From Emticicia agri (GTDB taxonomy: Bacteria; Bacteroidota; Bacteroidia; Cytophagales; Spirosomataceae): DNA of 64,000 bases. The stretch is from positions 124,001 through 188,000 of the forward strand of contig NZ_SEWF01000003.1 of the NCBI RefSeq assembly GCF_004168285.1, given 5' to 3'. The notes beneath the pieces are model-generated. The model did not search any database, had not been told where the DNA came from, and saw only the letters and a program-made list of their open reading frames with translations. The translations under genes and the position numbers were made by a program. This document shows positions 29,903 through 41,744 of this stretch, one piece after another; position 1 is the first letter of the stretch; every line of letters starts with the position of its first letter.

Positions 29903-30247
29903 GTGGAAACGAAGAAAAGAAAACTGACCTTTTCGAATAATCCTGTTCAGATTGATTCCCTACCTAAGTATAGCTGGATAGAGAGGGACACCCTTTTGCT
30001 TCATATTGCATTTCAGATATTTATGGATGCCCTTGAAAAAGACAGAGTACTGGAGGTGATTGATTGGGATTGTAATGAAGAATACCGTACAGTCAGAATG
30101 TATATTGTTCAATTAAGAAAATGGTGGTTAGAAAGAAAGGATAAAGACCGCCTAAAAGAAATTGACTACTCTGATGAAAAACAATACGAAGAAGACAGTA
30201 ATCATCTGCATATGTTAATGCTAATCCGCAAATATCTGGTAGTATAA
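29903..30247 (+). CDS. hypothetical protein of unknown family
   Basis: A 114-residue cytoplasmic protein from a GTG start, with many Trp, Arg, Lys and Glu residues (YSWIERDTLLLHIAFQIFMD, RKWWLERKDKDRLKEIDY). It has no signal peptide, membrane segment or motif that I recognise. The base composition and residue pattern look coding, and no better ORF occupies this strip. It lies between holA and the EBO cluster, 340 bp upstream of eboA, so it may or may not be related to it. No function is proposed. Confidence 0.5.
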   Translation: METKKRKLTFSNNPVQIDSLPKYSWIERDTLLLHIAFQIFMDALEKDRVLEVIDWDCNEEYRTVRMYIVQLRKWWLERKDKDRLKEIDYSDEKQYEEDSNHLHMLMLIRKYLVV

Positions 30248-30587: not shown

Positions 30588-31406
30588 ATGAATTATTCTT
30601 CTTTGCTGCTTGATAAAATTCAAAGTCAGGCATCATCAAAAGAGATAAGTTGGGTGGAGATGAAAGACAAAGGAAGTTTACAATCTTTGCAAACGGCTTT
30701 TGTTACAGTTCCGAGGTTTATTAGTAAAGATAAAATTCAATTTACCTCGCCTATCAATGAAGTTTCATTTGATAATTGGACTTTAGATAGACTTGTGAGA
30801 GTTTATCTTTTGACAAAATTTGATAGCTCAGATAAAAGTTCATATACTAAGGCAATAGATACATTATTTGATACGGCTGAAAACAATGAGGCGGTGGCAT
30901 TAATTTCAGCCCTGCCATTTTTGGCCTATCCTGACTACTGGATACTTCGAGCTACGAATGCTGTAAGGTCAAATATAGGCCCCGTTTTTGATGCTATTGC
31001 TTTTGAAAATCCATTTGCCAGAAACCACTTTTCAGACTTAGCCTGGAATCAACTGGTCTTAAAATGTATTTTCAATGATAAACCCATTAATAAAATTGAA
31101 GGGTTAGCAGAAAGAGCCAATCAGGAATTAGCTACATCAATCTCTAATCTTGCTCATGAACGCTGGTCTGCAGGTCGAACTATTCCTTCCCAAGCCTGGC
31201 GTTTAGTTAGTCAATTTATGAATGATGAAATTTTTAAGGATATTCAGCATTTGCTTTCATTCGGAAACGAATCAGATAGAATGGCAGCAGCTTTAGTTTG
31301 TACAGAGACTGATTTTCCGGAAGCAAAAAAGGCATTGGTAAGCAATGAAGATTTACAGTTAAAAATAGCCAATAAGGTTTTTAACTGGCAAAAGATCGAA
31401 AATTAA
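30588..31406 (+). CDS. eboA: EboA: EBO cluster protein of unknown function
   Basis: A 272-residue protein with no signal peptide and no known catalytic motif. It is predicted to be alpha-helical and matches EboA in length and in position as the first gene of the cluster (LVRVYLLTKFD, LISALPFLAYPDYWILRATN, ARNHFSDLAWNQLVLKC). EBO clusters are known from Bacteroidota, cyanobacteria, Pseudomonas and eustigmatophyte plastids. In cyanobacteria ebo genes are needed for export of a scytonemin precursor to the periplasm. EboA itself has no assigned reaction. The identification rests on the five downstream genes as much as on its own sequence. Confidence 0.85.
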   Translation: MNYSSLLLDKIQSQASSKEISWVEMKDKGSLQSLQTAFVTVPRFISKDKIQFTSPINEVSFDNWTLDRLVRVYLLTKFDSSDKSSYTKAIDTLFDTAENNEAVALISALPFLAYPDYWILRATNAVRSNIGPVFDAIAFENPFARNHFSDLAWNQLVLKCIFNDKPINKIEGLAERANQELATSISNLAHERWSAGRTIPSQAWRLVSQFMNDEIFKDIQHLLSFGNESDRMAAALVCTETDFPEAKKALVSNEDLQLKIANKVFNWQKIEN

Positions 31407-31438
31407 TAACAAAGAAGTATATCAATTACCACGAAAAG

Positions 31439-32458
31439 ATGTGTCAGAAGCACTCAGAAATAGCTCAAAATCCTTCCCATTTTGAAGGAAGTACAGATGA
31501 ATTGAAAACATCGAATGAAATTCAGTCTTATTATACAGAATATATAAAAGGCATGAAGTTCTTCGACCCCCATATTCATATGACGTCCAGAACTACGGAC
31601 GACTATACAGCTTTAATCGATGCCGGTGTAGTTGCTATTATTGAACCTGCTTTTTGGTTAGGACAACCCCGCACTGGTCTCTCTTCGTTTAAAGATTATT
31701 TTAGCAGTCTGGTGGGTTGGGAAAGATTCCGTTCTTCTCAGTTTGGCATTAAGCACTACTGTACCATAGGTCTGAACTCCCGTGAAGCAAACAACGAAGC
31801 TCTGGCTGAAGAGGTAATGGAAATACTGCCTGTATTTATATACAAAGAAGGAGTTGTTGGCGTAGGCGAAATCGGATTTGATGACCAGACTCCAGCTGAA
31901 GAAAAATATTATCGTCTACAATTAGAATTAGCCAAAGAGGCCAATATTCCGGTTCAGGTTCATACACCCCATCGTGACAAGAAAAAGGGTACTGAACTAA
32001 GTATATCTATTGCTTTAGAACACGCCCTTGACCCGGGTATGGTAATTATCGACCATAATAATGAAGAAACCGTTGAAGGTGTGCTTGAAAAAGGCTTTTG
32101 GGCAGCTTTTACCATTTATCCGTTTACCAAAATGGGGAATGAGCGTATGGTAGAAATTGTAAAAAAATATGGTTCAGAAAGAATTATGGTAAACTCGGCT
32201 GCAGATTGGGGGATAAGCGACCCTTTGGCTGTACCCAAAACAGCCGCCTTAATGAAAATAAAAGGGATTTCAGACGAAGATATCCGATTGGTTACTTATC
32301 AAAATGCTATCACCGCCTTTGCCCAGAGTGGTCAGATCAATGTCGCAGATTTTGAAACCCCTATGATTATAGACCAAAGTCTCAAATTTAATGGAAATAC
32401 CGTTCTACGTGGAGGGCAGATACCAAGAATTGAGAAAGATTCAATAATTATTAGTTAA
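31439..32458 (+). CDS. eboB: EboB: TatD-like metal-dependent hydrolase
   Basis: The 339-residue TIM-barrel protein has the metal ligands of the TatD/amidohydrolase superfamily: HxH in FFDPHIHM (H45, H47), Glu in GVVGVGEIGFD, His in VQVHTPHRDK, His in VIIDHNNEE and a late Asp in NSAADWG. TatD proteins are nucleases or phosphoesterases; the EBO form acts on an unknown substrate. It follows eboA after 32 bp. An internal ATG at codon 39 (MKFFDPHIHM) is a possible alternative start because the first 38 residues look poorly conserved. Confidence 0.88.
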   Translation: MCQKHSEIAQNPSHFEGSTDELKTSNEIQSYYTEYIKGMKFFDPHIHMTSRTTDDYTALIDAGVVAIIEPAFWLGQPRTGLSSFKDYFSSLVGWERFRSSQFGIKHYCTIGLNSREANNEALAEEVMEILPVFIYKEGVVGVGEIGFDDQTPAEEKYYRLQLELAKEANIPVQVHTPHRDKKKGTELSISIALEHALDPGMVIIDHNNEETVEGVLEKGFWAAFTIYPFTKMGNERMVEIVKKYGSERIMVNSAADWGISDPLAVPKTAALMKIKGISDEDIRLVTYQNAITAFAQSGQINVADFETPMIIDQSLKFNGNTVLRGGQIPRIEKDSIIIS

Positions 32459-32543
32459 TAAAAACAGCTATTTTATCAATCAGGTTAAATAGATGACCCA
32501 TAGACTTTAGTGATTAACTTATCACTAAACAATTACTAAGGCC

Positions 32544-33425
32544 TTGAATATAAAACCCTACTTACAACTAACCCGACCTGCAAACATTATTACAGCCATC
32601 TCTGATATTCTGGCAGGAATCGCTATTGCTGGGTTTTCGTTTTCATTAAACCAGATTGACCTTTGGAAAGCAGCCTTCTTATGTATGGCTACAGTGGGCT
32701 TATATGGTGGTGGAATCGTCTTCAACGATATATTTGATTTAGAGTTAGATAAGATTGAACGTCCTGAGAGAGTGATTCCAAGCGGTAAAATAAGTAAAGA
32801 AAAGGCCACTGTCTTTGGCGTTTTATTGCTGACAATGGGTATAACAATGGCATGGCTCAATAGCCCTGCCAGCGCCATGATTGCTTTAGCAGTAGCCATT
32901 TGCGCTTTAGTATATGACAAATTTGGGAAGCATCATTCTTTTCTGGGACCAATTAATATGGGCCTTTGCAGAGGGGGAAACCTGATTTTAGGTATTAGTA
33001 TTATTGAGACGGCCATTAACCATTGGTGGTTGATAAGTATCTTACCGATTTGCTACATAGCGGCAATCACGATGATTAGTCGTGGTGAGGTTCATGGCGG
33101 AAACAAAGCCACACTCTATTTTGCCGCTTTTCTTTATATCGTGGTTAGCAGTGTACAGCTCTATGTTGCATTCAAATTAGGTAATATCCTATTGGCTGCA
33201 CCGTTTGTAGCTTTACACATATACCTGATTTTCAATCCTTTAACCAAAGCAATAGCCAATCCAATAGGGCCAAATATAGGGAAGGCCGTGAAAGCAGGGG
33301 TTTTATCATTAATTGTGATGAATGCGGCATGGGTTAGTGTGTCTGGTAATATTATTTTTGCATTGGTAGTGCTCTGTCTGTTACCTGTTTCAATAAGTCT
33401 GGCAAAGATTTTTGCAGTAACATAA
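32544..33425 (+). CDS. eboC: EboC: UbiA-family prenyltransferase
   Basis: The 293-residue integral membrane protein has about eight membrane helices and the Asp-rich site NDIFDLELDKIERPERVIPS (NDxxDxxxD...RPxxSG), which binds the polyprenyl diphosphate with Mg. This marks it as a UbiA-type aromatic prenyltransferase. It presumably prenylates, or condenses a lipid with, the product of the cluster. Translation starts at TTG (32544) with no better ATG before the first helix. A gap of 85 bp separates it from eboB. Confidence 0.9.
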   Translation: MNIKPYLQLTRPANIITAISDILAGIAIAGFSFSLNQIDLWKAAFLCMATVGLYGGGIVFNDIFDLELDKIERPERVIPSGKISKEKATVFGVLLLTMGITMAWLNSPASAMIALAVAICALVYDKFGKHHSFLGPINMGLCRGGNLILGISIIETAINHWWLISILPICYIAAITMISRGEVHGGNKATLYFAAFLYIVVSSVQLYVAFKLGNILLAAPFVALHIYLIFNPLTKAIANPIGPNIGKAVKAGVLSLIVMNAAWVSVSGNIIFALVVLCLLPVSISLAKIFAVT

Positions 33426-33473
33426 AGTATAGATGCCATAGTTTTCGTTTATTTTTATTTATTCAACCTTTCA

Positions 33474-34622
33474 ATGAGTGTAATTCAACAGGCTTTTCAA
33501 GTCCCTTATTCATTTAATATTATTTTCACCCAAAATCTTTTCTCTTCAGAGAACAAAGAGTTAATTAATTTCTTGTTACACTTCGGAGATAACGGTTTTC
33601 AAAAGAAGATTTTATTTTTAATTGATGAAGGTGTAGCAGAAAAGCATCTTTTTCTAACAGAATCAATCAGAAATTATTTTGAAGGGCAAACACAGATTTT
33701 ATTAGCCGAAGAAATACTGATTTTGCCAGGTGGAGAGCTTGTAAAAAACAATCCTCAGTATTTAGAACAGACACTTCTCGCAATTAATAATTACGGCATA
33801 GACAGACACTCTTTTGTAGCGGCAATTGGTGGTGGTGCCTTTCTTGACATGGTTGGCTATGCTTCCTGCATTGCGCACAGAGGGGTAAAACATATTCGTA
33901 TTCCTACCACAGTTCTTTCTCAAAACGATTCGGGTGTGGGTGTAAAAAACGGAGTAAATTTCCTGGGTAAAAAAAATTTCCTTGGTACCTTTTCACCACC
34001 TGTAGCAGTTTTTAATGATTCTGATTTCTTAAAGACACTTTCAGACAGAGACTGGCGTTCAGGTATTTCAGAGGCTATAAAAGTAGCTTTAATTAAAGAT
34101 TTAGCCTTTTTTGAGTGGCTTGAGAAAAATGCAGAACGTATGGTTGCCCGTGAAATAGAAGTAATGAACGAACAGATTTTCAGGTCAGCAGCTTTGCACA
34201 CCAATCATATTTCAAGTGGCGACCCTTTTGAGATGGGTTCTGCCAGGCCTCTCGATTTCGGGCATTGGGCAGCGCATAAATTAGAGTATCTCAGCAATTT
34301 TGAAATACGTCATGGGGAGGCTGTAGCTGTTGGTATTGCACTTGATTCTGTTTATTCGCACCTTTTAGGGTTAATTTCGGAGGAAGATGCTTTAAGAATT
34401 ATAAGGGTTTTAAAAACATTAGGTTTTACCCTCTATCATCCATCGCTTTCAGAAAATGATAAGCAAAATCTTCTGGAAGGCCTCAATGAATTCAGAGAAC
34501 ATTTGGGTGGTAGATTGACCATCACAATATTAGAAAAATTAGGAAAAGGTAAAGAAGTGCATGAGGTAAACTTCGGGTTAATGAAACTTGCGGTTGACCG
34601 TCTGAAATTAACCCTTGATTAA
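33474..34622 (+). CDS. eboD: EboD: 3-dehydroquinate-synthase-like sugar phosphate cyclase
   Basis: The 382 residues follow the dehydroquinate synthase fold. NAD loop GGGAFLDMVGYAS and IPTTVLSQNDSGVGVKNGVN are visible, and the zinc ligands are intact: Glu in SGISEAIKVALIKD, His in LDFGHWAAHKLE and His in RHGEAVAVG. It is thus probably an active cyclase, but sequence alone does not tell its sugar phosphate substrate; shikimate-pathway AroB is a different, closer-to-canonical gene elsewhere. It overlaps functionally with eboE, whose ATG lies 2 bp after the eboD stop. Confidence 0.9.
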   Translation: MSVIQQAFQVPYSFNIIFTQNLFSSENKELINFLLHFGDNGFQKKILFLIDEGVAEKHLFLTESIRNYFEGQTQILLAEEILILPGGELVKNNPQYLEQTLLAINNYGIDRHSFVAAIGGGAFLDMVGYASCIAHRGVKHIRIPTTVLSQNDSGVGVKNGVNFLGKKNFLGTFSPPVAVFNDSDFLKTLSDRDWRSGISEAIKVALIKDLAFFEWLEKNAERMVAREIEVMNEQIFRSAALHTNHISSGDPFEMGSARPLDFGHWAAHKLEYLSNFEIRHGEAVAVGIALDSVYSHLLGLISEEDALRIIRVLKTLGFTLYHPSLSENDKQNLLEGLNEFREHLGGRLTITILEKLGKGKEVHEVNFGLMKLAVDRLKLTLD

Positions 34623-34624
34623 AT

Positions 34625-35818
34625 ATGAATACACCCTACGGACATTTAAGCTATTGTAGTAATATTCATCCGGGAGAAAACTGGGATGAGCATTTTGCAG
34701 TGCTGCAAAACAGTATTCCACAAATTAAAGCAGAAGTTTGTCCTGATGCGCCAATGGGTATCGGTCTCCGGTTAGCCAATCAGGCAAGTATAGATTTATC
34801 AATAAATGAGCACTTTAGTTCATTTAAAAACTGGCTTGCAGAGAACAATTGCTATGTTTTTACAATGAACGGTTTCCCATTCGGAAATTTTCATCACACC
34901 ATTGTAAAAGACATGGTTCATGCTCCTGACTGGACAACTCAGGAAAGAACCGATTATACAATCAGACTATTTGAACTATTAGCCGAGCTTTTACCTGAAA
35001 ACCTACAGGAAGGAGGAATTTCAACCTCCCCTCTCTCCTACCGTTTCTGGTGGGCAACTGATGAATTGTTAGAGCAAGCAACCATTAAAGCAACCGGAAA
35101 TATGATTTCAGTTGTTGAGGCTTTAATTGAATTACACAAAAAAACCGGTAAACTATTACATCTCGATATTGAACCTGAACCTGATGGTATTCTTGAAAAT
35201 TCTGACGAGTTTATACATTGGTACAATAACTACTTATTGCCCATTGGGATAAAACAGCTTCAAAGTAAAGGCTTATCGACGGAAGAAGCTACCGAGGCCA
35301 TAAAAAACCATATTCAGCTATGCTATGATGTCTGTCATTTTGCAGTAGGTTTTGAGAAACCGGTTAAAGTTTTAGAAAAATTAAATGCAAATCAATTGAA
35401 AGTAGGCAAAATTCAAATCAGTTCAGCTTTAAAAGTAGATTTCTCAGAAAATGCTGAAGAAAAACTAAATGAAATTGCTCAGTATAATGAACCTACCTAT
35501 TTACATCAGGTAGTCGCTAAAAAAAATGATGGGTCTTATATAAAATTCCCTGATTTAAATGAAGCTATAACTAATTTCAGCAATGAAATCAATTCGTGGC
35601 GAGTACACTTCCATGTTCCATTGTTTCTTGAACAATACGGGTTATTGAGTTCCACGCAAAAAGATATTGTTGATGTACTCGATATCCATAAAGAAAAGCC
35701 TTTTACGCAACATTTAGAAATAGAAACTTATACATGGGGCGTTTTACCAAAAGAATTTCAGGCACCATTGAATGAAAGCATTATCAGAGAAATTAAGTGG
35801 GTAAAAGGTGTTTTATAA
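34625..35818 (+). CDS. eboE: EboE: TIM-barrel sugar isomerase / AP-endonuclease-like protein
   Basis: A 397-residue protein of the xylose-isomerase-like / AP endonuclease 2 superfamily: YGHLSYCSNIHPGENWDEHF at the start, then GIGLRLANQAS, FTMNGFPFGNFH, LHLDIEPEPDGIL and CYDVCHFAVGFE, which hold the likely metal ligands (Glu, Asp, His). The activity is not known, but a sugar or sugar-phosphate isomerase or lyase is the natural guess given EboD before it. Only 2 bp separate it from eboD, indicating translational coupling. Confidence 0.87.
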   Translation: MNTPYGHLSYCSNIHPGENWDEHFAVLQNSIPQIKAEVCPDAPMGIGLRLANQASIDLSINEHFSSFKNWLAENNCYVFTMNGFPFGNFHHTIVKDMVHAPDWTTQERTDYTIRLFELLAELLPENLQEGGISTSPLSYRFWWATDELLEQATIKATGNMISVVEALIELHKKTGKLLHLDIEPEPDGILENSDEFIHWYNNYLLPIGIKQLQSKGLSTEEATEAIKNHIQLCYDVCHFAVGFEKPVKVLEKLNANQLKVGKIQISSALKVDFSENAEEKLNEIAQYNEPTYLHQVVAKKNDGSYIKFPDLNEAITNFSNEINSWRVHFHVPLFLEQYGLLSSTQKDIVDVLDIHKEKPFTQHLEIETYTWGVLPKEFQAPLNESIIREIKWVKGVL

Positions 35819-35907
35819 AGCGTTTTTTAATCATAAATCTTTCACTCAAATCGTAGATAGTAAAGAATGCTATTCTATTGATTTAGGGCATTTCATTTTA
35901 TAATATT

Positions 35908-37287
35908 ATGCAAAAAACGGTAGTTATTGACATTGTAGGGCTTAGTACTAGTGTAATAGGTGAACATACACCTTTCTTGCAGAAATTTATTGCTCAAAAT
36001 CATTTAAAACATATCAAGCCTGCTTTTCCGGCAGTTACTACTACTTCTCAAAGTTGTTACATCACAGGCAAGAACCCCGATGAGCACGGCATTGTAGGAA
36101 ACGGTTGGTATGACCGTGAGGCTTGCGAAATGAAGTTCTGGAAACAATCTAATAACCTGGTTGATGCTGAAAAAATTTGGGAGGCAGCTAAAAGAAAGAA
36201 TCCTGAATTTACAGTATCAAAAATGTTTTGGTGGTATAATATGTATTCATCTGCTGATTTTTCAGCTACTCCACGACCACAATATCATTCAGATGGGGTA
36301 AAGGTTCCTGATTGTTATACCTTTCCAGCTGATTTAAGAGACAAGTTACAGGCAAAATACGGTACATTTCCTCTTTTTAAATTCTGGGGACCCAATACAA
36401 GTATCGAATGCTCTAAATGGATTGCCAATGCGGCTTTGGAAGTTGACAAAGACCATGATCCGACGCTGACGCTAATATATTTACCACATTTAGATTATTG
36501 CTTACAAAAGTTTGGAGTTGATTTTAATAAAATTTCAAAAGACCTGACCGAAATAGATAAACTTGTTGAAGAAACTGTTAATTACTATCAACAAAAAAAG
36601 GCCAATATAATTTTATTATCTGAGTACGGGATAAACAATGTCAGTAATCCTATTCACATCAACCGAATTCTTCGTAAAAACGGTTTGCTCTCTGTAAGAG
36701 TTGAAAGTGGCCTTGAATTGCTCGACTGTGGTGCATCAAAAGCCTTTGCAGCCGCCGACCATCAGATTGCGCATATTTACATCAATGATTTAAGTGAGAA
36801 AGAAAGAATTAAAGATATACTCTCAAAAGTAGATGGTATTCGGCTAATAATGGATGAAGAAGAGAAGAAAAAACATCACATTAATCATACGAGAGCAGGA
36901 GATTTAGTTTTGATGGCCAGAGCAGATAGTTGGTTTACTTATTACTATTGGTTTGATGACAAAGTAGCTCCTGATTTTGCAAGAAGTGTAGATATTCATA
37001 ATAAACCGGGTTATGACCCTGTGGAAATGTTTATGAATCCGGCAAATCCACTAATAAAGTTAAGAGCAGCTTATAAATTAGCACGCAAATTATTAGGATT
37101 CAGATATAGGATGGATGTAATTCCGCTGGATGCAAGCCTTATTAAAGGATCACATGGAACTTTAGATATTAATAAAGAATATTATCCTGTGCTAATTAGC
37201 AATCAAAACCTATCAACCGAAATTGCCGCTACTGATGTTTATCAAGTAATCTGGGATAGTATTTTTGGTTATGAGAAAACTAAATGA
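35908..37287 (+). CDS. eboF: EboF: alkaline-phosphatase-superfamily (NPP-like) protein
   Basis: The 459-residue protein has the nucleotide pyrophosphatase/phosphodiesterase fold. The first metal Asp is D8 (VVIDIVGLS) and the nucleophile T44 in FPAVTTTSQS; D196 in YLPHLDYCLQKFG and H416 in GSHG are kept. However the ligand expected at 200 is Gln, not His, and the usual SDHG motif is SEYG (E239, Y240). The binuclear metal site is therefore altered and hydrolysis of a phosphate ester is uncertain. The same changes may be shared by the whole EboF family. No signal peptide is seen, so it is likely cytosolic. It ends the cluster, 89 bp after eboE. Confidence 0.87.
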   Translation: MQKTVVIDIVGLSTSVIGEHTPFLQKFIAQNHLKHIKPAFPAVTTTSQSCYITGKNPDEHGIVGNGWYDREACEMKFWKQSNNLVDAEKIWEAAKRKNPEFTVSKMFWWYNMYSSADFSATPRPQYHSDGVKVPDCYTFPADLRDKLQAKYGTFPLFKFWGPNTSIECSKWIANAALEVDKDHDPTLTLIYLPHLDYCLQKFGVDFNKISKDLTEIDKLVEETVNYYQQKKANIILLSEYGINNVSNPIHINRILRKNGLLSVRVESGLELLDCGASKAFAAADHQIAHIYINDLSEKERIKDILSKVDGIRLIMDEEEKKKHHINHTRAGDLVLMARADSWFTYYYWFDDKVAPDFARSVDIHNKPGYDPVEMFMNPANPLIKLRAAYKLARKLLGFRYRMDVIPLDASLIKGSHGTLDINKEYYPVLISNQNLSTEIAATDVYQVIWDSIFGYEKTK

Positions 37288-37316: not shown

Positions 37317-38699
37317 TCATTGAGCCAGCCGACCTGCCGCATAATCAATTGCTATAATTGATTTGGCAACCTTGGTTTGCAGGGAAATTAATTTTTGCTG
37401 GGCTTCATAAAACTTATTTTCTCTGCTATTGACTAAAAACAGACTACTTTCGCCATTAATAAACTTCGTAATTTCAGCCTGATAAAGCCTTTGATAGCTA
37501 TTTACAGTTTGCTGATAAATTTCTAACTGACGTTGCAACTGCACCGCATCATTAAAATAACTGTTTACTTTATTTTGCTGCTCAGTAAACAAAATGCGGT
37601 TTTCCCACGATTGTTGCATTATTTTTAGATTAGCTTTTCTATATTCAGCACGGGCTTCCCTCAGAAGCAAAGGCATTCCAATTGTAAAACCCCATTTATA
37701 ATTATTCTGAAATAGGTTAGGTTCGGCAATAAATCCATAATCCTTATTCAGAAAATTATAGTTCAGATTCAATGTGGGTAAAAGGCTCTGGAACTTGAGT
37801 TGTTTTTCAATAGATAATACATTACTTTTAATTTGTGCCTGCCTTAATTTAGGGTGAGTGGGCAATGTAGTCATGTAATCACTCAGGGGCATCAAAGGCT
37901 GACTGATTCGAGTAGGATTAGGTTGAACAGTTGACGGCAATTGGTAAGACTGTTCATTTTCCTGCCACAAAAAATTATTCAATTCAAATCCGGCATTATT
38001 AAGTGCTTGTTGAGCCTCAGTTTGTTGAAACTCAAAACTCTGCAATTGCGCCAGTGTTTCTACCGTATCAATAGCCGGACGGTCGCCAAGAATTACCCCA
38101 TTTTTAATAAAATCATAACGCCTCAGATTGGTTTGCAAAAGACTATCTGCCAACTGTTTAACAAAAAAAGCATTTTGCCATTCGTAATAAGCACTTGTAG
38201 CCTCATAAAGCAAATCATTCAGAATCAACCTTCTTTCTTCATCTGAATAAGACACCATTTCTCTTGCTTGCCTGACAGCAGCCCTTCTTTTATCAATCAA
38301 CAAACCTTTTCCTAAAGCTACCTGTGCCCCTATAAAGCTACTTCTACCTTTGGTAAGTTCTGTAGCTGTGTATTGTCCTTGATTGTTTTCAGTTCCGGCT
38401 TTAAAATCTACCCCATACCAGGTTGGAACCTTCAGCTCTGATGTTAGATAAGTATAGTAATGCTTACCTCCGAATTGCTTCTCGTTTTTATTAAAATAAA
38501 CGGAAGGCTCAAATGCACCTCTGGCACTTTGTAGCTCGGCTTTGGCTATTTCAGTTTGCAGTGCAGCCTGTTGTGCTACAGGATGGTATTTTCTGACTAT
38601 ATTTATAAACTCGTCGTAAGACAATTTGTCTTGTCCAAAAGCAATTTTTGTGTAGCTCAGACAAATAATTATATAAAACAATAATTTTTGCATTTTCAA
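37317..38699 (-). CDS. TolC-family outer membrane efflux protein
   Basis: The 460-residue protein has a signal peptide (LLFYIIICLSYTKIAFGQ) and the duplicated coiled-coil/beta pattern of TolC, with long heptad stretches such as QTEIAKAELQSARGAFEPS and QNKVNSYFNDAVQLQRQLEI. It should form the outer-membrane channel of the export system encoded with hlyD and the ABC gene upstream (9 bp from hlyD). A Met two codons in is an alternative start. It converges on eboF with 29 bp between and no obvious terminator. Confidence 0.88.
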   Translation of the reverse strand: MKMQKLLFYIIICLSYTKIAFGQDKLSYDEFINIVRKYHPVAQQAALQTEIAKAELQSARGAFEPSVYFNKNEKQFGGKHYYTYLTSELKVPTWYGVDFKAGTENNQGQYTATELTKGRSSFIGAQVALGKGLLIDKRRAAVRQAREMVSYSDEERRLILNDLLYEATSAYYEWQNAFFVKQLADSLLQTNLRRYDFIKNGVILGDRPAIDTVETLAQLQSFEFQQTEAQQALNNAGFELNNFLWQENEQSYQLPSTVQPNPTRISQPLMPLSDYMTTLPTHPKLRQAQIKSNVLSIEKQLKFQSLLPTLNLNYNFLNKDYGFIAEPNLFQNNYKWGFTIGMPLLLREARAEYRKANLKIMQQSWENRILFTEQQNKVNSYFNDAVQLQRQLEIYQQTVNSYQRLYQAEITKFINGESSLFLVNSRENKFYEAQQKLISLQTKVAKSIIAIDYAAGRLAQ

Positions 38700-38708
38700 A
38701 ACAGATAT

Positions 38709-40058
38709 TTACTTTTTAGCAGTTTTACTGGCATCTTGTTCAATATAATATTCAGGTGGAAAACCATTGATATTACGCCATACCTCATAACCAAGTGGTA
38801 CATCTTTTAATAAAATAAAGGTATCTGTGGCAGTTCCTAATCTTAAACCATTGGGCCATGGCCGCTCATTCGGGTCGGGTTTTACAAGAACCCTGAAATT
38901 TCCACTTGCCGCATCTACATTATTAGATATTGCCGTAATTACACCTCTGAAAGTTCCATACGATTGCGTAGGCCAGCCACTAAATACAATGGCCGGAAAT
39001 CCATCAAAAATCACGTTTACTTTCCTGCCCGGTTGCAGTAATGTAATATCAAGCGGCTTCACAAAAATTTCAATAGCCATTGCACTCTGGTCAGGTACAA
39101 TCTGCGCCAGCTCTTCTCCTTCTTTCACAATTTCACCAATTCCTGCTTTATTAGCTCTTGTTACTTGCCCACTTTGAGGAGCTATTACATAATATAATTC
39201 ATTACGCAACCGATAGCTGCTATATTGATTTTCAAGTTTGGCAATATCTGCATCACCACTCGCAATCTGAGAAAGAGACTGGTAACGCTCTCCTCTCGTT
39301 TTAGAAATTTTCTCAATATACTCCTGATTTACTGTATTCAATTCTAATGAAAGGTTAATTAAATCCTGTTTCGAATTCATGAATTTAATTTCACTTCCTG
39401 TCCGTTTAGCCAACGAATTCTGAAATGCTTGGTTTCGTTGCTCATATTGCGTTAGTGATACAAGACCTTGGTCGTATAACTGTTTTTGTCGCTTCAATTG
39501 TTCGCTGGCAATGGCAAATTCATTCCTTGCAGCAAGCATATCCATACTATCAGCTTGAATTTTAGCCTTGGTCTGAGCTATTTTGTTATTTATCTGAGCT
39601 ATTTTCAATCGTTGTGCCGCTTCCATAGCTTTGGTTTGCTCATCTGCGGTATTGGCTTTACTCAGGTAATTTTCATTAGCAAGTTCTTTAGCGGTAATCT
39701 GTTGGCGGGTACGTTCAATTAAATTAGGGTCAAGGTATTCCACCTTTACCTCTTGCAATCGTGCTATGGTATCTCCTTGTTTTATCATGTCCCCTTCTTT
39801 TACATACCATTGTACAACTTTTCCGGTAATAGCACTGTAGACTCCCTGTTGCCTTTGTTCCTGGCGTAAGGTAGTTACTTTTCCGCGGCTCTTGATATTT
39901 TGAGTCCAGGGCAAGAAAGCTGCCAGAATCAATAAACCCAGCAAGCCAAACGCCCAGGCTTTAACATTACTCCGCCGATCAATAAAATAAATATCTCTGA
40001 AAGATTTAGGCTGTTTGGTCAAATCTTCTTCTTCAAAAACTGTATCTATAAATTTCAT
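38709..40058 (-). CDS. HlyD-family membrane fusion protein
   Basis: The 449-residue protein has an N-terminal cytoplasmic tail, one membrane helix (about 33-51, WAFGLLGLLILAAFLPW), a biotinyl-lipoyl half-motif (GKVVQWYVKEGDMIKQGDTI), a long alpha-hairpin with many Gln/Lys heptads, and the second lipoyl half plus beta-barrel domain (VIAPQSGQVTRANKAGIGE; PGRKVNVIFDGFPAI). This is the adaptor joining an inner-membrane transporter to TolC. It lies between tolC-like and ABC genes in one transcription unit, with gaps of 9 and 48 bp. Confidence 0.9.
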   Translation of the reverse strand: MKFIDTVFEEEDLTKQPKSFRDIYFIDRRSNVKAWAFGLLGLLILAAFLPWTQNIKSRGKVTTLRQEQRQQGVYSAITGKVVQWYVKEGDMIKQGDTIARLQEVKVEYLDPNLIERTRQQITAKELANENYLSKANTADEQTKAMEAAQRLKIAQINNKIAQTKAKIQADSMDMLAARNEFAIASEQLKRQKQLYDQGLVSLTQYEQRNQAFQNSLAKRTGSEIKFMNSKQDLINLSLELNTVNQEYIEKISKTRGERYQSLSQIASGDADIAKLENQYSSYRLRNELYYVIAPQSGQVTRANKAGIGEIVKEGEELAQIVPDQSAMAIEIFVKPLDITLLQPGRKVNVIFDGFPAIVFSGWPTQSYGTFRGVITAISNNVDAASGNFRVLVKPDPNERPWPNGLRLGTATDTFILLKDVPLGYEVWRNINGFPPEYYIEQDASKTAKK

Positions 40059-40106
40059 GTGTGCTCATGCTTTTAGTTATACCTAAATTAGTTGCGGGTA
40101 CCTGAT

Positions 40107-41744
40107 TTACTTTATTTCTATAATCCGGTTAAAATAAGGTAGTACTCCTTCCTGGTCTGAAGCTACTATAACTGTCATAGGTAGACTATTAATATAATCT
40201 GCCACTTTCTGGCGCTTTGCCTTATTGAGGCTTTTAAAAGGTTCATCAAGAATCATTAACTGACAAGGCTGAACAAACGTACGGAGTAATAAAATTTCCT
40301 GCACTAAGTGAGAAGGCAATTTTGCTCCCTTTGTAAAAAGTATAGTGGCAAAACCTTTCTCAAACTCATCAATGAATCCGGTAAAACCTAATTTCTTAAT
40401 TAACTCATTCGTAGTTTCAGGCTTCACATCAGGATTACCAATAGTAATATTTTCCCAGAGAGTTCCATTAAAAACTTCATTTTGCCCACTCAGATAATTG
40501 ACATTCTTACGGAAACTATGCATTTCATAATTATCTACTGGTGTATCATTAATTAGAATACTGCCGGAATGTTCTGTTAAATTATTGCTGATAAGTTTTA
40601 ATATAGTACTTGTACCAGCACCAGAAGCTGTTTTATTCAGTAAGGCTTTCTCTCCTGCCTCTACTTTGAATGAAATGCCATTAAGCAACTGATTATTAGG
40701 TGTATAAGAGAAGCTGACTTTCTTAAACTCAACACTCAGGGGGCTTTTTGGATTAAGTATTAAGGTACCATTAGATTCTGTAGGCGTTTGTAATACTTTA
40801 TTTAATTTTTCAACAGCAGTCAGTACATCATAGACAATATCAATACTTGTAATCAGTTTTTCGACAGAGGCCATAATAGCGATAATCACAATTTCAGCAG
40901 CAATAAACTGACCAATATTAATTAAATTGTTAAGGAGCAGAATACAGCCAATGATTAACATAGCTGCCGTTAAGACTACCTTAAAAACTACAAGGCTCCA
41001 GTACTGAGTGGTCAGAATACCAAAGTGATTGGTACGATTCTGCAAATACCCCTGCGTATATTCATCTGTTTTCTGAATATTTAACCGGGTATATTCAAAG
41101 TTTTTGAAAGTATTCTGGGTACGGCTGATTTCCTGTAACCAGGCTGCTACTTTATATTTAAAATCGCTCTCTCTTAAGCTCGTTGTCAATCCTCTTTCAG
41201 AACTCAATCTGAAAATCAGATAGACTATTAACAGCAATAATGCACCAAAGGCGATGAAAATTGAATGATAAAAAGATAATAATAAAATCCCGAAAAGTAT
41301 CTGTATAAATGCGGTTGGTACATCGAGTAGTAGTTTCGATAAACCTTTTTGCAGATTTACTGTATCAAAAAAACGATTTGTCAGTTCGGGCATGTAGTAT
41401 CCTTCTGTAGCTTCGGGCCGAATCTTGGGCAAAGTATCTGCATAAGCAAAAGCATACCTTACAAAAATTTTTTGCTGAATTTTCTCGCTGAGTTTCATTT
41501 GCTTAATCTGCAAAAAACCGGCAAAGAAAACACTAAAAATTACCAGACAGATAAGCACAATCAACGAAGTGGAGGCCGTATTGTACATAACAAAGTTAAT
41601 GATTGACTGGATACCTAATGGTAAAACCAACTGGATAATTCCGGATAAGATGGCATAGAAATAGAGCGAACTAATATCCAGTTTGTCAAGCCTTAAAAGA
41701 TTTATAATTCTTATAAAAGGGTGGAAATCATGATTGTCAGCCAT
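40107..41744 (-). CDS. ABC exporter (membrane plus ATPase) with degenerate ATP-binding motifs
   Basis: The 545-residue protein is a half-transporter with six membrane helices (about 25-290) and an NBD. Unlike a normal exporter, the Walker A is TASGAGTST (372-380), with Thr378 where the invariant Lys should be. The LSGGQ signature is replaced by LPSHL (476-480), and the H-loop reads VIVASDQE with Asp530 instead of His. The Q-loop Gln (421) and Walker B LMILDEP with Glu501 remain. No C39 peptidase domain is present. ATP binding and hydrolysis are therefore doubtful. Whether it needs a partner NBD or another energy source is unknown. Expressed first in the abc-hlyD-tolC run; a -7 element is at 41771-41764. 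Confidence 0.88.
   Translation of the reverse strand: MADNHDFHPFIRIINLLRLDKLDISSLYFYAILSGIIQLVLPLGIQSIINFVMYNTASTSLIVLICLVIFSVFFAGFLQIKQMKLSEKIQQKIFVRYAFAYADTLPKIRPEATEGYYMPELTNRFFDTVNLQKGLSKLLLDVPTAFIQILFGILLLSFYHSIFIAFGALLLLIVYLIFRLSSERGLTTSLRESDFKYKVAAWLQEISRTQNTFKNFEYTRLNIQKTDEYTQGYLQNRTNHFGILTTQYWSLVVFKVVLTAAMLIIGCILLLNNLINIGQFIAAEIVIIAIMASVEKLITSIDIVYDVLTAVEKLNKVLQTPTESNGTLILNPKSPLSVEFKKVSFSYTPNNQLLNGISFKVEAGEKALLNKTASGAGTSTILKLISNNLTEHSGSILINDTPVDNYEMHSFRKNVNYLSGQNEVFNGTLWENITIGNPDVKPETTNELIKKLGFTGFIDEFEKGFATILFTKGAKLPSHLVQEILLLRTFVQPCQLMILDEPFKSLNKAKRQKVADYINSLPMTVIVASDQEGVLPYFNRIIEIK

Follow-up and report, generated by a model that had tools for sequence, protein, structure and literature searches.

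The ebo operon was named by Yurchenko et al. 2016 (PMC5133447), whose main text reports the gene order ABCDEF for Bacteroidetes, Cyanobacteria and Leptospira, describes EBO from many phyla and some algal plastids, and proposes an isoprenoid-cyclitol product. The same paper treats EboD as a sugar-phosphate cyclase clade that is new, and mentions for Actinobacteria an EboA fused to a xylose-isomerase-like domain. According to the text of Klicki et al. (PMC6282210), every tested ebo deletion in Nostoc retains the scytonemin monomer in the cytoplasm, the enzyme ScyE acts in the periplasm, at a point of scytonemin synthesis that is downstream of ebo, and a cyclitol-lipid carrier is proposed; that text also cites Burlinson et al. 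for transposon hits in eboA, eboD or eboE homologues that abolish nematode repellence in Pseudomonas. Ubi-297 and two further EboC orthologues are reported to farnesylate 8-hydroxyquinoline-2-carboxylic acid (8-HQA), and EboC orthologues to farnesylate quinaldic acid in vitro (Amiri Moghaddam et al., PMC9235831). Here we analyze a 64,000-nucleotide stretch of Emticicia agri (contig NZ_SEWF01000003.1, positions 124,001 to 188,000; hereafter the window), which carries a complete eboA–eboF cluster at 30588-37287 on the forward strand, and describe how the position of EboD is held in other clusters by a protein of the myo-inositol phosphate synthase (MIPS) family.

The six open reading frames (ORFs) of the window's cluster lie on one strand in the order ABCDEF, with successive gaps of 32, 85, 48, 2 and 89 bases. 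They encode an orphan, predicted all-helical protein (eboA, 30588-31406, +, 272 aa), a TatD/amidohydrolase-like metal hydrolase (eboB, 31439-32458, +, 339 aa), a UbiA-family membrane prenyltransferase (eboC, 32544-33425, +, 293 aa, TTG start), a sugar-phosphate cyclase distinct from the genome's AroB (eboD, 33474-34622, +, 382 aa), a xylose-isomerase-like TIM barrel (eboE, 34625-35818, +, 397 aa) and a member of the Phosphodiest (PF01663) family with altered metal ligands (eboF, 35908-37287, +, 459 aa). EboC (NF035940, 415.5 bits) and EboE (NF035939, 511.4 bits) both pass a curated equivalog cut-off of 250, and EboD exceeds the NCBIfam cut-off of 333 for NF004852 with 552 bits. EboA passes the NCBIfam EboA domain model NF035938 (164.6 bits, cut-off 50) and stays below the narrower EboA_family model NF035937 (178.6 bits against a cut-off of 320), a value reached in none of the 58 genomes searched, 35 of which have a match. 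Pfam families were matched by EboB (TatD_DNase, 56.7 bits), EboD (DHQ_synthase, 108.7 bits; DHQS_C, 112.1 bits) and EboF (PF01663, 203.9 bits, cut-off 23), the last of which is not independent evidence because the Pfam seed itself includes five EboF sequences (PMC5133447). These matches bear out the complete EBO cluster that a sequence-only reading had proposed. Judged by families, strand and order, the window is an ordinary complete D-type EBO operon of the ABCDEF form, with no departure from the type given in the main text of PMC5133447. It likewise shares EboA, EboB, EboC, EboE and EboF with the Nostoc punctiforme cluster, where EboD lies nearby on the opposite strand (PMC6282210); the EDB cluster of Pseudomonas fluorescens NZI7, which is linked to nematode repellence, is said in that paper to hold a full ebo cluster. 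The Pseudomonas ISL-33 locus runs D-C-A-B-E-F, as against the window's ABCDEF.

To place this operon among its relatives, 115 annotated stretches (L043-L051, L054-L133, L156-L171, L176-L184 and the window) were searched with models built in this analysis, and 81 loci, the window included, carried EboB, EboC and EboF each above 100 bits. EboD is present in 52 of them and a MIPS-family gene in 24, with none holding both and 5 holding neither; the 34 stretches left out comprise 8 with EboD, 4 with MIPS and 22 with neither. The D-type loci belong to Bacteroidota (30, window included), Pseudomonadota (11), Cyanobacteriota (6), Deinococcota (2) and Acidobacteriota, Myxococcota and Spirochaetota (1 each), and the M-type loci to Actinomycetota (20), haloarchaea (3) and Gemmatimonadota (1, Gemmatirosa). 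The set is not a random one: it joins chosen EboC and EboB plasmid matches, the best 80 of 399 genome loci that an EboB alignment retrieved from genomes representing one species each, and one phylum sample. The short stretches L001-L042, L134-L155 and L172-L175 and the window's relatives L185-L204 stand outside it; within it L132 and L163 are near-copies. One actinobacterial genome, G399, contributes two ebo-type clusters, L162 with MIPS and L159 without.

The MIPS gene was first seen beside EboC in the Gemmatirosa locus, in an EboC search of plasmid records, and then in Nonomuraea and Streptomyces. It lies within 407 bases of EboC in 21 of the 24 M-type loci and 1.5 to 2.0 kb away in the three haloarchaeal ones. 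Ten actinobacterial loci have the order M-C-X-A-B-E-F, where X is an extra isomerase, and the other ten differ by the strand shown or by a further X nearby; the order D-C-A-B-E-F is found in L059, L062 and L078 (Pseudomonas, Rheinheimera). These SCO3242-type actinobacterial clusters thus have EboA, EboB, EboE, EboF and an EboC relative in common with the window and differ from it in carrying a MIPS-family protein in place of EboD, plus the isomerase, which in L043 and L044 forms one open frame with EboA. Among 246 genomes sampled evenly across Actinomycetota, 12 carry EboB, at 13 places; in the 11 sample loci L156-L166, all with EboC and EboF, the neighbor of EboC is MIPS in 10 and EboD in none, the sample centre L093 (M-type) and L167 (a weak partial match, EboB only) having been set aside. 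The annotation by NCBI of the cluster MIPS in Streptomyces (L176, L177) and haloarchaea (L178-L180) reads inositol-3-phosphate synthase. Two further arrangements were seen in passing. Saccharothrix S26 has a second group, made up of MIPS, an isomerase and EboA (L170:6175-8652), with no other ebo genes on 16 kb. Lewinella IMCC34191, which has an ebo cluster without EboD, carries the genes for MIPS and an X-type sugar isomerase on one strand, separated by five ORFs (L171:407-7975).

By its profile matches, the cluster MIPS is a true relative of MIPS. It matches PF07994 with 170 bits and PF01658 with 101 bits, aligns to the solved MIPS 1u1i over residues 5-374 with 228 bits, and has lysine at both positions where entries 3qvw and 3qvx show alanine in place of a lysine. 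The match to the five-membered-cyclitol-phosphate synthase 6k96 is weaker (51 bits). A housekeeping actinobacterial Ino1 of the mycothiol type was rejected as its identity, the three proteins tested scoring 30-47 bits against a cut-off of 638. Genome-wide, all 4 D-type genomes searched have EboD above its cut-off, as against none of 21 genomes without EboD in the cluster. PF07994, searched without the record of L043 and the genome of L079, was found in 11 of 13 D-less genomes, and among D-type genomes in 0 of 6 and in 5 of 39 (331-351 bits) in two sets. The same model was silent in a Corynebacterium glutamicum control, a species that we take to have a mycothiol-type Ino1, so it probably overlooks that enzyme.

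Since the EboD slot is filled elsewhere by an unrelated cyclase of the inositol type, a ring-shaped sugar alcohol is suggested as the core of the product; two unrelated cyclases in one slot are comparative evidence that points to a cyclitol. The sequence-only reading had left the product unnamed and suggested a prenylated cyclitol-like metabolite, which is the published hypothesis of PMC5133447, and the swap independently supports its cyclitol part. The six-gene cluster and the prenylated-cyclitol idea are both already in that paper; what is added here is the exchange of EboD and MIPS, a variant that its main text does not mention. In the literature searched, which did not reach subscription papers, no paper joins ebo with inositol or MIPS, and the word inositol has no occurrence in the main texts, figures not covered, of PMC5133447, PMC6282210, PMC9235831, PMC6092422 and PMC9796282. 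Figure 3 of PMC9235831 (Saccharomonospora loci), or subscription papers, may already show MIPS unremarked.

The window's EboD itself does not fit the sequence pattern of a 3-dehydroquinate synthase (DHQS). It scores 219.5 bits on the AroB model TIGR01357, under the cut-off of 305, and a separate AroB on another contig of the genome scores 335.7 bits, over it. In all 59 aligned EboD rows the position of DHQS K250 is not lysine and that of N268 is aspartate, as in ValA (4p53); the catalytic roles of these two residues (1dqs numbering) are assumed by us. H242, R258, D261, H264, H268 and H280 are invariant in the 59 rows. On these grounds the identity of EboD as a true AroB was rejected.

Phylogenies of the shared proteins show strong clustering of D-type and M-type rows, with a minimum of two D/M changes for EboF, two for EboB and one for EboC, and this difference stems from Gemmatirosa. 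Its EboB is nearest to Deinococcus (support 100), and a place within the M group is rejected for it (p 2.65e-49); its EboF falls among D-type rows (97). Its EboC groups with the actinobacterial M-type at 99/96, and in the gene layout EboC has EboF on one side and the MIPS-isomerase pair on the other. In the EboC tree a single clade uniting the M rows is supported at only 65/76, and an alternative that places the Gemmatirosa EboC outside the clade of the other M rows was not rejected (approximately unbiased test, p 0.16); the EboC and EboB topology tests counted L050 and L113 as M rows despite their having no adjacent MIPS. With the caution due to one case, the trees suggest that the cyclase and the prenyltransferase were exchanged together. 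The EboC tree holds 80 of the 81 rows, the remaining one being L181 of Ketogulonicigenium vulgare WSH-001, where EboC (L181:4951-5798) is annotated as two overlapping pieces.

Among the other proteins, EboC has the first Asp-rich motif NDxxDxxxD (N61, D62, D65, D69) in 79 of 79 rows and, of the second motif, keeps only E182 (78 of 79); with eight hydrophobic segments in a simple hydropathy scan, it has the features of the UbiA family, namely the first Asp-rich motif and multiple membrane helices. The same kind of scan gave one internal hydrophobic segment in EboD and no signal-peptide-like N-terminus in EboA, EboB, EboD, EboE or EboF. EboB keeps H45, H47, E144, H175 and H206 in 112 of 112 rows and H178 and D256 in 111, and we take its conserved HxH, Glu, His, His and Asp to be the metal-ligand positions of the TatD family. 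Its nearest solved relative by profile is 3guw, the uncharacterised AF_1765 (144 bits); both 3guw and 1u1i, the structure nearest to the cluster MIPS, are presumably from Archaeoglobus fulgidus. The AlphaFold model of EboE (pLDDT 95.3) retrieves in Foldseek xylose isomerases, the dehydratase AsbF and 2-hydroxy-3-keto-glucal hydratase at E of about 1e-6 and TM-scores of 0.4-0.5 by query length, which makes it plausible that EboE carries out a step of the isomerase or dehydratase type on a sugar or a cyclitol; a search for PDB relatives by sequence gave chance-level matches only. Eight EboE residues (E183, E185, D235, H238, H294, H328, H330 and E367) are conserved in 66 of 66 rows. EboA is modeled as all helix (pLDDT 96.7), with no PDB match at E<=0.001 in Foldseek, where the best rows have E>=0.27 and are mostly HEAT/ARM-like, and a PDB profile search gave nothing credible; E101, R127, K159, R176, L181, E191, A195 and R197 are invariant in 53 aligned rows. 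Such an all-helical model without a fold relative would fit, and does not prove, the scaffold idea put forward in PMC6282210.

EboF had been described from the sequence as alkaline-phosphatase-like. The fold family stands, and the metal ligands do not. T44, the nucleophile, is threonine in all 88 filled rows, D196 is present in 89 of 89 rows and H416 in all 85 filled rows, and D8 is aspartate in only 47 of 88. At three metal-ligand positions the residue has changed, His to Q200 in 86 of 89 rows, Asp to E239 in 89 of 89 and His to Y240 in 89 of 89, so that EboF appears to lack the canonical two-metal ligand set of the type I phosphodiesterase/nucleotide pyrophosphatase (NPP) family. The positions come from weak pairwise alignments (about 5 bits each for the second stretch) that agree for the NPP structures 4lqy, 6wet and 4zg7, and the aligned NPP residues are those which we take to be the two-metal ligands. 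An ordinary two-zinc phosphodiesterase is doubted as the identity of EboF on the strength of the three changed positions, weakly aligned as they are, and the label phosphodiesterase is unsafe on this residue pattern.

In our view the EBO cluster probably builds a prenyl-cyclitol lipid carrier or cofactor, its ring made by EboD or MIPS, for moving a small metabolite to the periplasm. From the observed gene content, cyclase swap and residue changes we infer the substrates, step order, product and carrier role as follows. EboD would close a linear sugar phosphate, with sedoheptulose 7-phosphate as the leading candidate, to give a cyclitol as neutral carbocycle. Within the inner membrane, EboC would place a prenyl chain on this cyclitol or a derivative, transfer having been shown on surrogates for orthologues. 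EboE and EboB, with their conserved metal-site residues, could tailor the ring or its substituents, EboF may bind or act on a phosphate-bearing intermediate through its rebuilt active site, and EboA might conceivably serve as a helical scaffold or substrate-binding subunit. The likely sequence is ring closure first, then tailoring by EboE, EboB and perhaps EboF, and then prenylation by EboC. Remaining at the inner membrane, the prenyl-cyclitol would act as a cofactor or lipid carrier by means of which a small metabolite of the cytoplasm gets to the periplasm. For actinobacteria and haloarchaea, the MIPS-family enzyme would supply the ring, giving a parallel compound of the prenyl-inositol type.

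Several observations weigh against this prenyl-cyclitol reading. The ebo literature surveyed contains no isolated EBO product, and the acceptors measured for EboC are aromatic quinolines rather than cyclitols (PMC9235831). In the Nostoc work, as its text describes it, eboD lay outside the analysis and no lipid-conjugated monomer was found (PMC6282210). EboD is not simply EEVS-like in its active-site residues, as it keeps histidine at the H275 position where ValA has proline. A single common end product is unlikely because MIPS would give an inositol phosphate and EboD a C7 cyclitol without phosphate. The five loci without an adjacent cyclase (L060, L159, L113, L120 and L050) weaken any strict rule. 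The Lewinella locus L120 comes from a genome with no EboD over cut-off and one MIPS elsewhere, and two D-less actinobacterial genomes, G260 and G262, gave no PF07994 match, but their ebo contigs end inside the cluster. As for the other four, the genomes of L159 and L113 (G258) carry a second EBO-type locus with MIPS (L162 and L168, respectively); in L060 the first gene, X, begins at contig base 270 and the genome has MIPS elsewhere in another context; and for L050 (Haladaptatus) a search confined to its plasmid found no MIPS there.

The quinoline acceptors lead to the first of three competing explanations, in which the product is a prenylated aromatic, quinoline- or shikimate-derived, with a DHQS-like EboD feeding the aromatic ring and EboC prenylating it. 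The in vitro farnesylation of 8-HQA and quinaldic acid favors it, as does the name of EboD's best NCBIfam model, 3-dehydroquinate synthase. Yet the changed K250 and N268 positions and the genome's own AroB speak against a shikimate-type role for EboD, and in 24 loci EboD is replaced by the MIPS family, which is known to make cyclitol phosphates rather than precursors of aromatic compounds. Moreover, PMC9235831 reports that the R145A mutant stayed active and that neither phenols nor catechols served as acceptors, so the quinolines used may be surrogates; we consider an aromatic product rather improbable. The same replacement bears on the idea that the Ebo proteins form a membrane-anchored complex that translocates small molecules, their enzyme folds co-opted and no new metabolite made, since the exchange of EboD for another cyclase family with its lysines kept is sensible only if catalysis matters. 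Near-invariant active-site residues in EboB, EboC, EboD and EboE (59-112 rows) likewise argue for working enzymes. What such a complex would explain is the single export block, without gene-specific intermediates, shared by the tested Nostoc ebo mutants (PMC6282210), the predicted all-helical EboA with its best, though insignificant, PDB rows mostly HEAT/ARM-like, and the altered metal ligands of EboF. Taken together, we hold a purely translocating role to be rather improbable as well.

It is also conceivable, though unlikely, that the actinobacterial MIPS beside EboC is no replacement for EboD but works in a pathway of its own, the EBO-like clusters there making something unrelated. The EboC relative of L176 does score as a SCO3242-family protein (349 bits) and reaches only 111 bits on the EboC model, and M-type clusters carry the extra isomerase X. 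In S. coelicolor, moreover, the calcium-dependent antibiotic cluster is listed with the putative transferase SCO3242 next to the myo-inositol phosphate synthase SCO3243, in passages that make no link to ebo (PMC3610822). Set against this, MIPS and EboD occur together in none of the 81 loci, MIPS holds the position of EboD in an otherwise identical order, EboA, EboB, EboE and EboF are kept, and MIPS also stands with EboB, EboC and EboF in haloarchaea and Gemmatirosa. These patterns favor the prenyl-cyclitol reading, with MIPS as the alternative source of its ring.

Within its own lineage the window's cluster is conserved as a block. EboA was matched in 35 of the 58 genomes, namely the window's own (6.65 Mb, 174 contigs), 10 of 10 from the same genus, 20 of 25 from elsewhere in the family and 4 of 22 from elsewhere in the order. 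Loci were fetched from 20 relatives (10, 7 and 3 from these groups), and the order A-B-C-D-E-F is kept in 9 of the 10 same-genus loci, the tenth being interrupted by a contig end, and in 6 of the 7 from the family (L195-L201), where the stretch of L198 has A, B and C only; the stretches of the three from the order each show only part of the set (A; A and B; A). The gene order is thus retained among relatives, as the sequence-only reading had expected of a genuine EBO cluster. Whole eboF plus at least about 1.5 kb beyond it was available in 14 of the 20 loci. The TolC/HlyD genes downstream in the window recur in one of the 20 (L185) and its upstream ORFs in none, and since the order is kept while the flanks vary, the six genes form a unit in the genus and the family, to a degree far beyond chance. 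The EboF tree places the window's row with Runella and Dyadobacter (Spirosomataceae), and of 198 genomes sampled across Bacteroidota, 16 have EboC above cut-off, among them the window's own.

The downstream neighbors (37317-41744, reverse strand) are a TolC-type outer-membrane efflux protein, identified by Pfam, and HlyD-like and ABC-transporter genes, recognized by eye, convergent with eboF; a functional link with EBO was rejected, as this flank is not conserved. Upstream of eboA lies an ORF of 114 aa (29903-30247, +), for which Pfam and NCBIfam gave nothing at E<=1 and tblastn against the loci of the 20 relatives nothing at E<=1e-4. Scans of the window showed no excess of promoters (23 against a shuffle mean of 24.9) or terminators (3 against 5.1), and an Rfam gathering scan gave tRNAs only. 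Unlike the scytonemin system of Nostoc punctiforme, the window contains no match above 25 bits to the ScyD/ScyE family (single-sequence model). A member of that family (NF033206, 256.5 bits) lies directly upstream of the MIPS-type cluster of Streptomyces NBC_00019 (L176:3082-4281), with a multicopper oxidase downstream, and a second, found with a local model, lies near the cluster of Streptomyces NBC_01450 (L044:18055-19203). In five loci of three phyla, a protein of about 590-675 aa and a ferritin-like protein adjoin D-type ebo clusters (L046:3620-6702, L049:3162-6222, L183:10981-14262, L054 and L103). The former has a weak VioB match in L049 (28.9 bits), and the latter is PF12902 in L046 and L049 and assigned by a local model in the others. 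The pair may represent a co-inherited oxidative dimerization step; none was found in the window.

More broadly, and tentatively, EBO could be one branch of a bacterial and archaeal pathway for prenylated cyclitol lipids that move metabolites across the inner membrane, its ring coming from EboD (C7-cyclitol type) or from a dedicated MIPS (inositol type), with cyclase and prenyltransferase swapped together. For EboF, the altered site sets right an automatic annotation by which assays would be misled. If two unrelated ring-forming enzymes do indeed share the cyclase slot, the step to a cyclitol is no longer a guess from a single homology and becomes a testable swap, and the M-type clusters name Streptomyces strains in which labelled inositol could be traced into the product.

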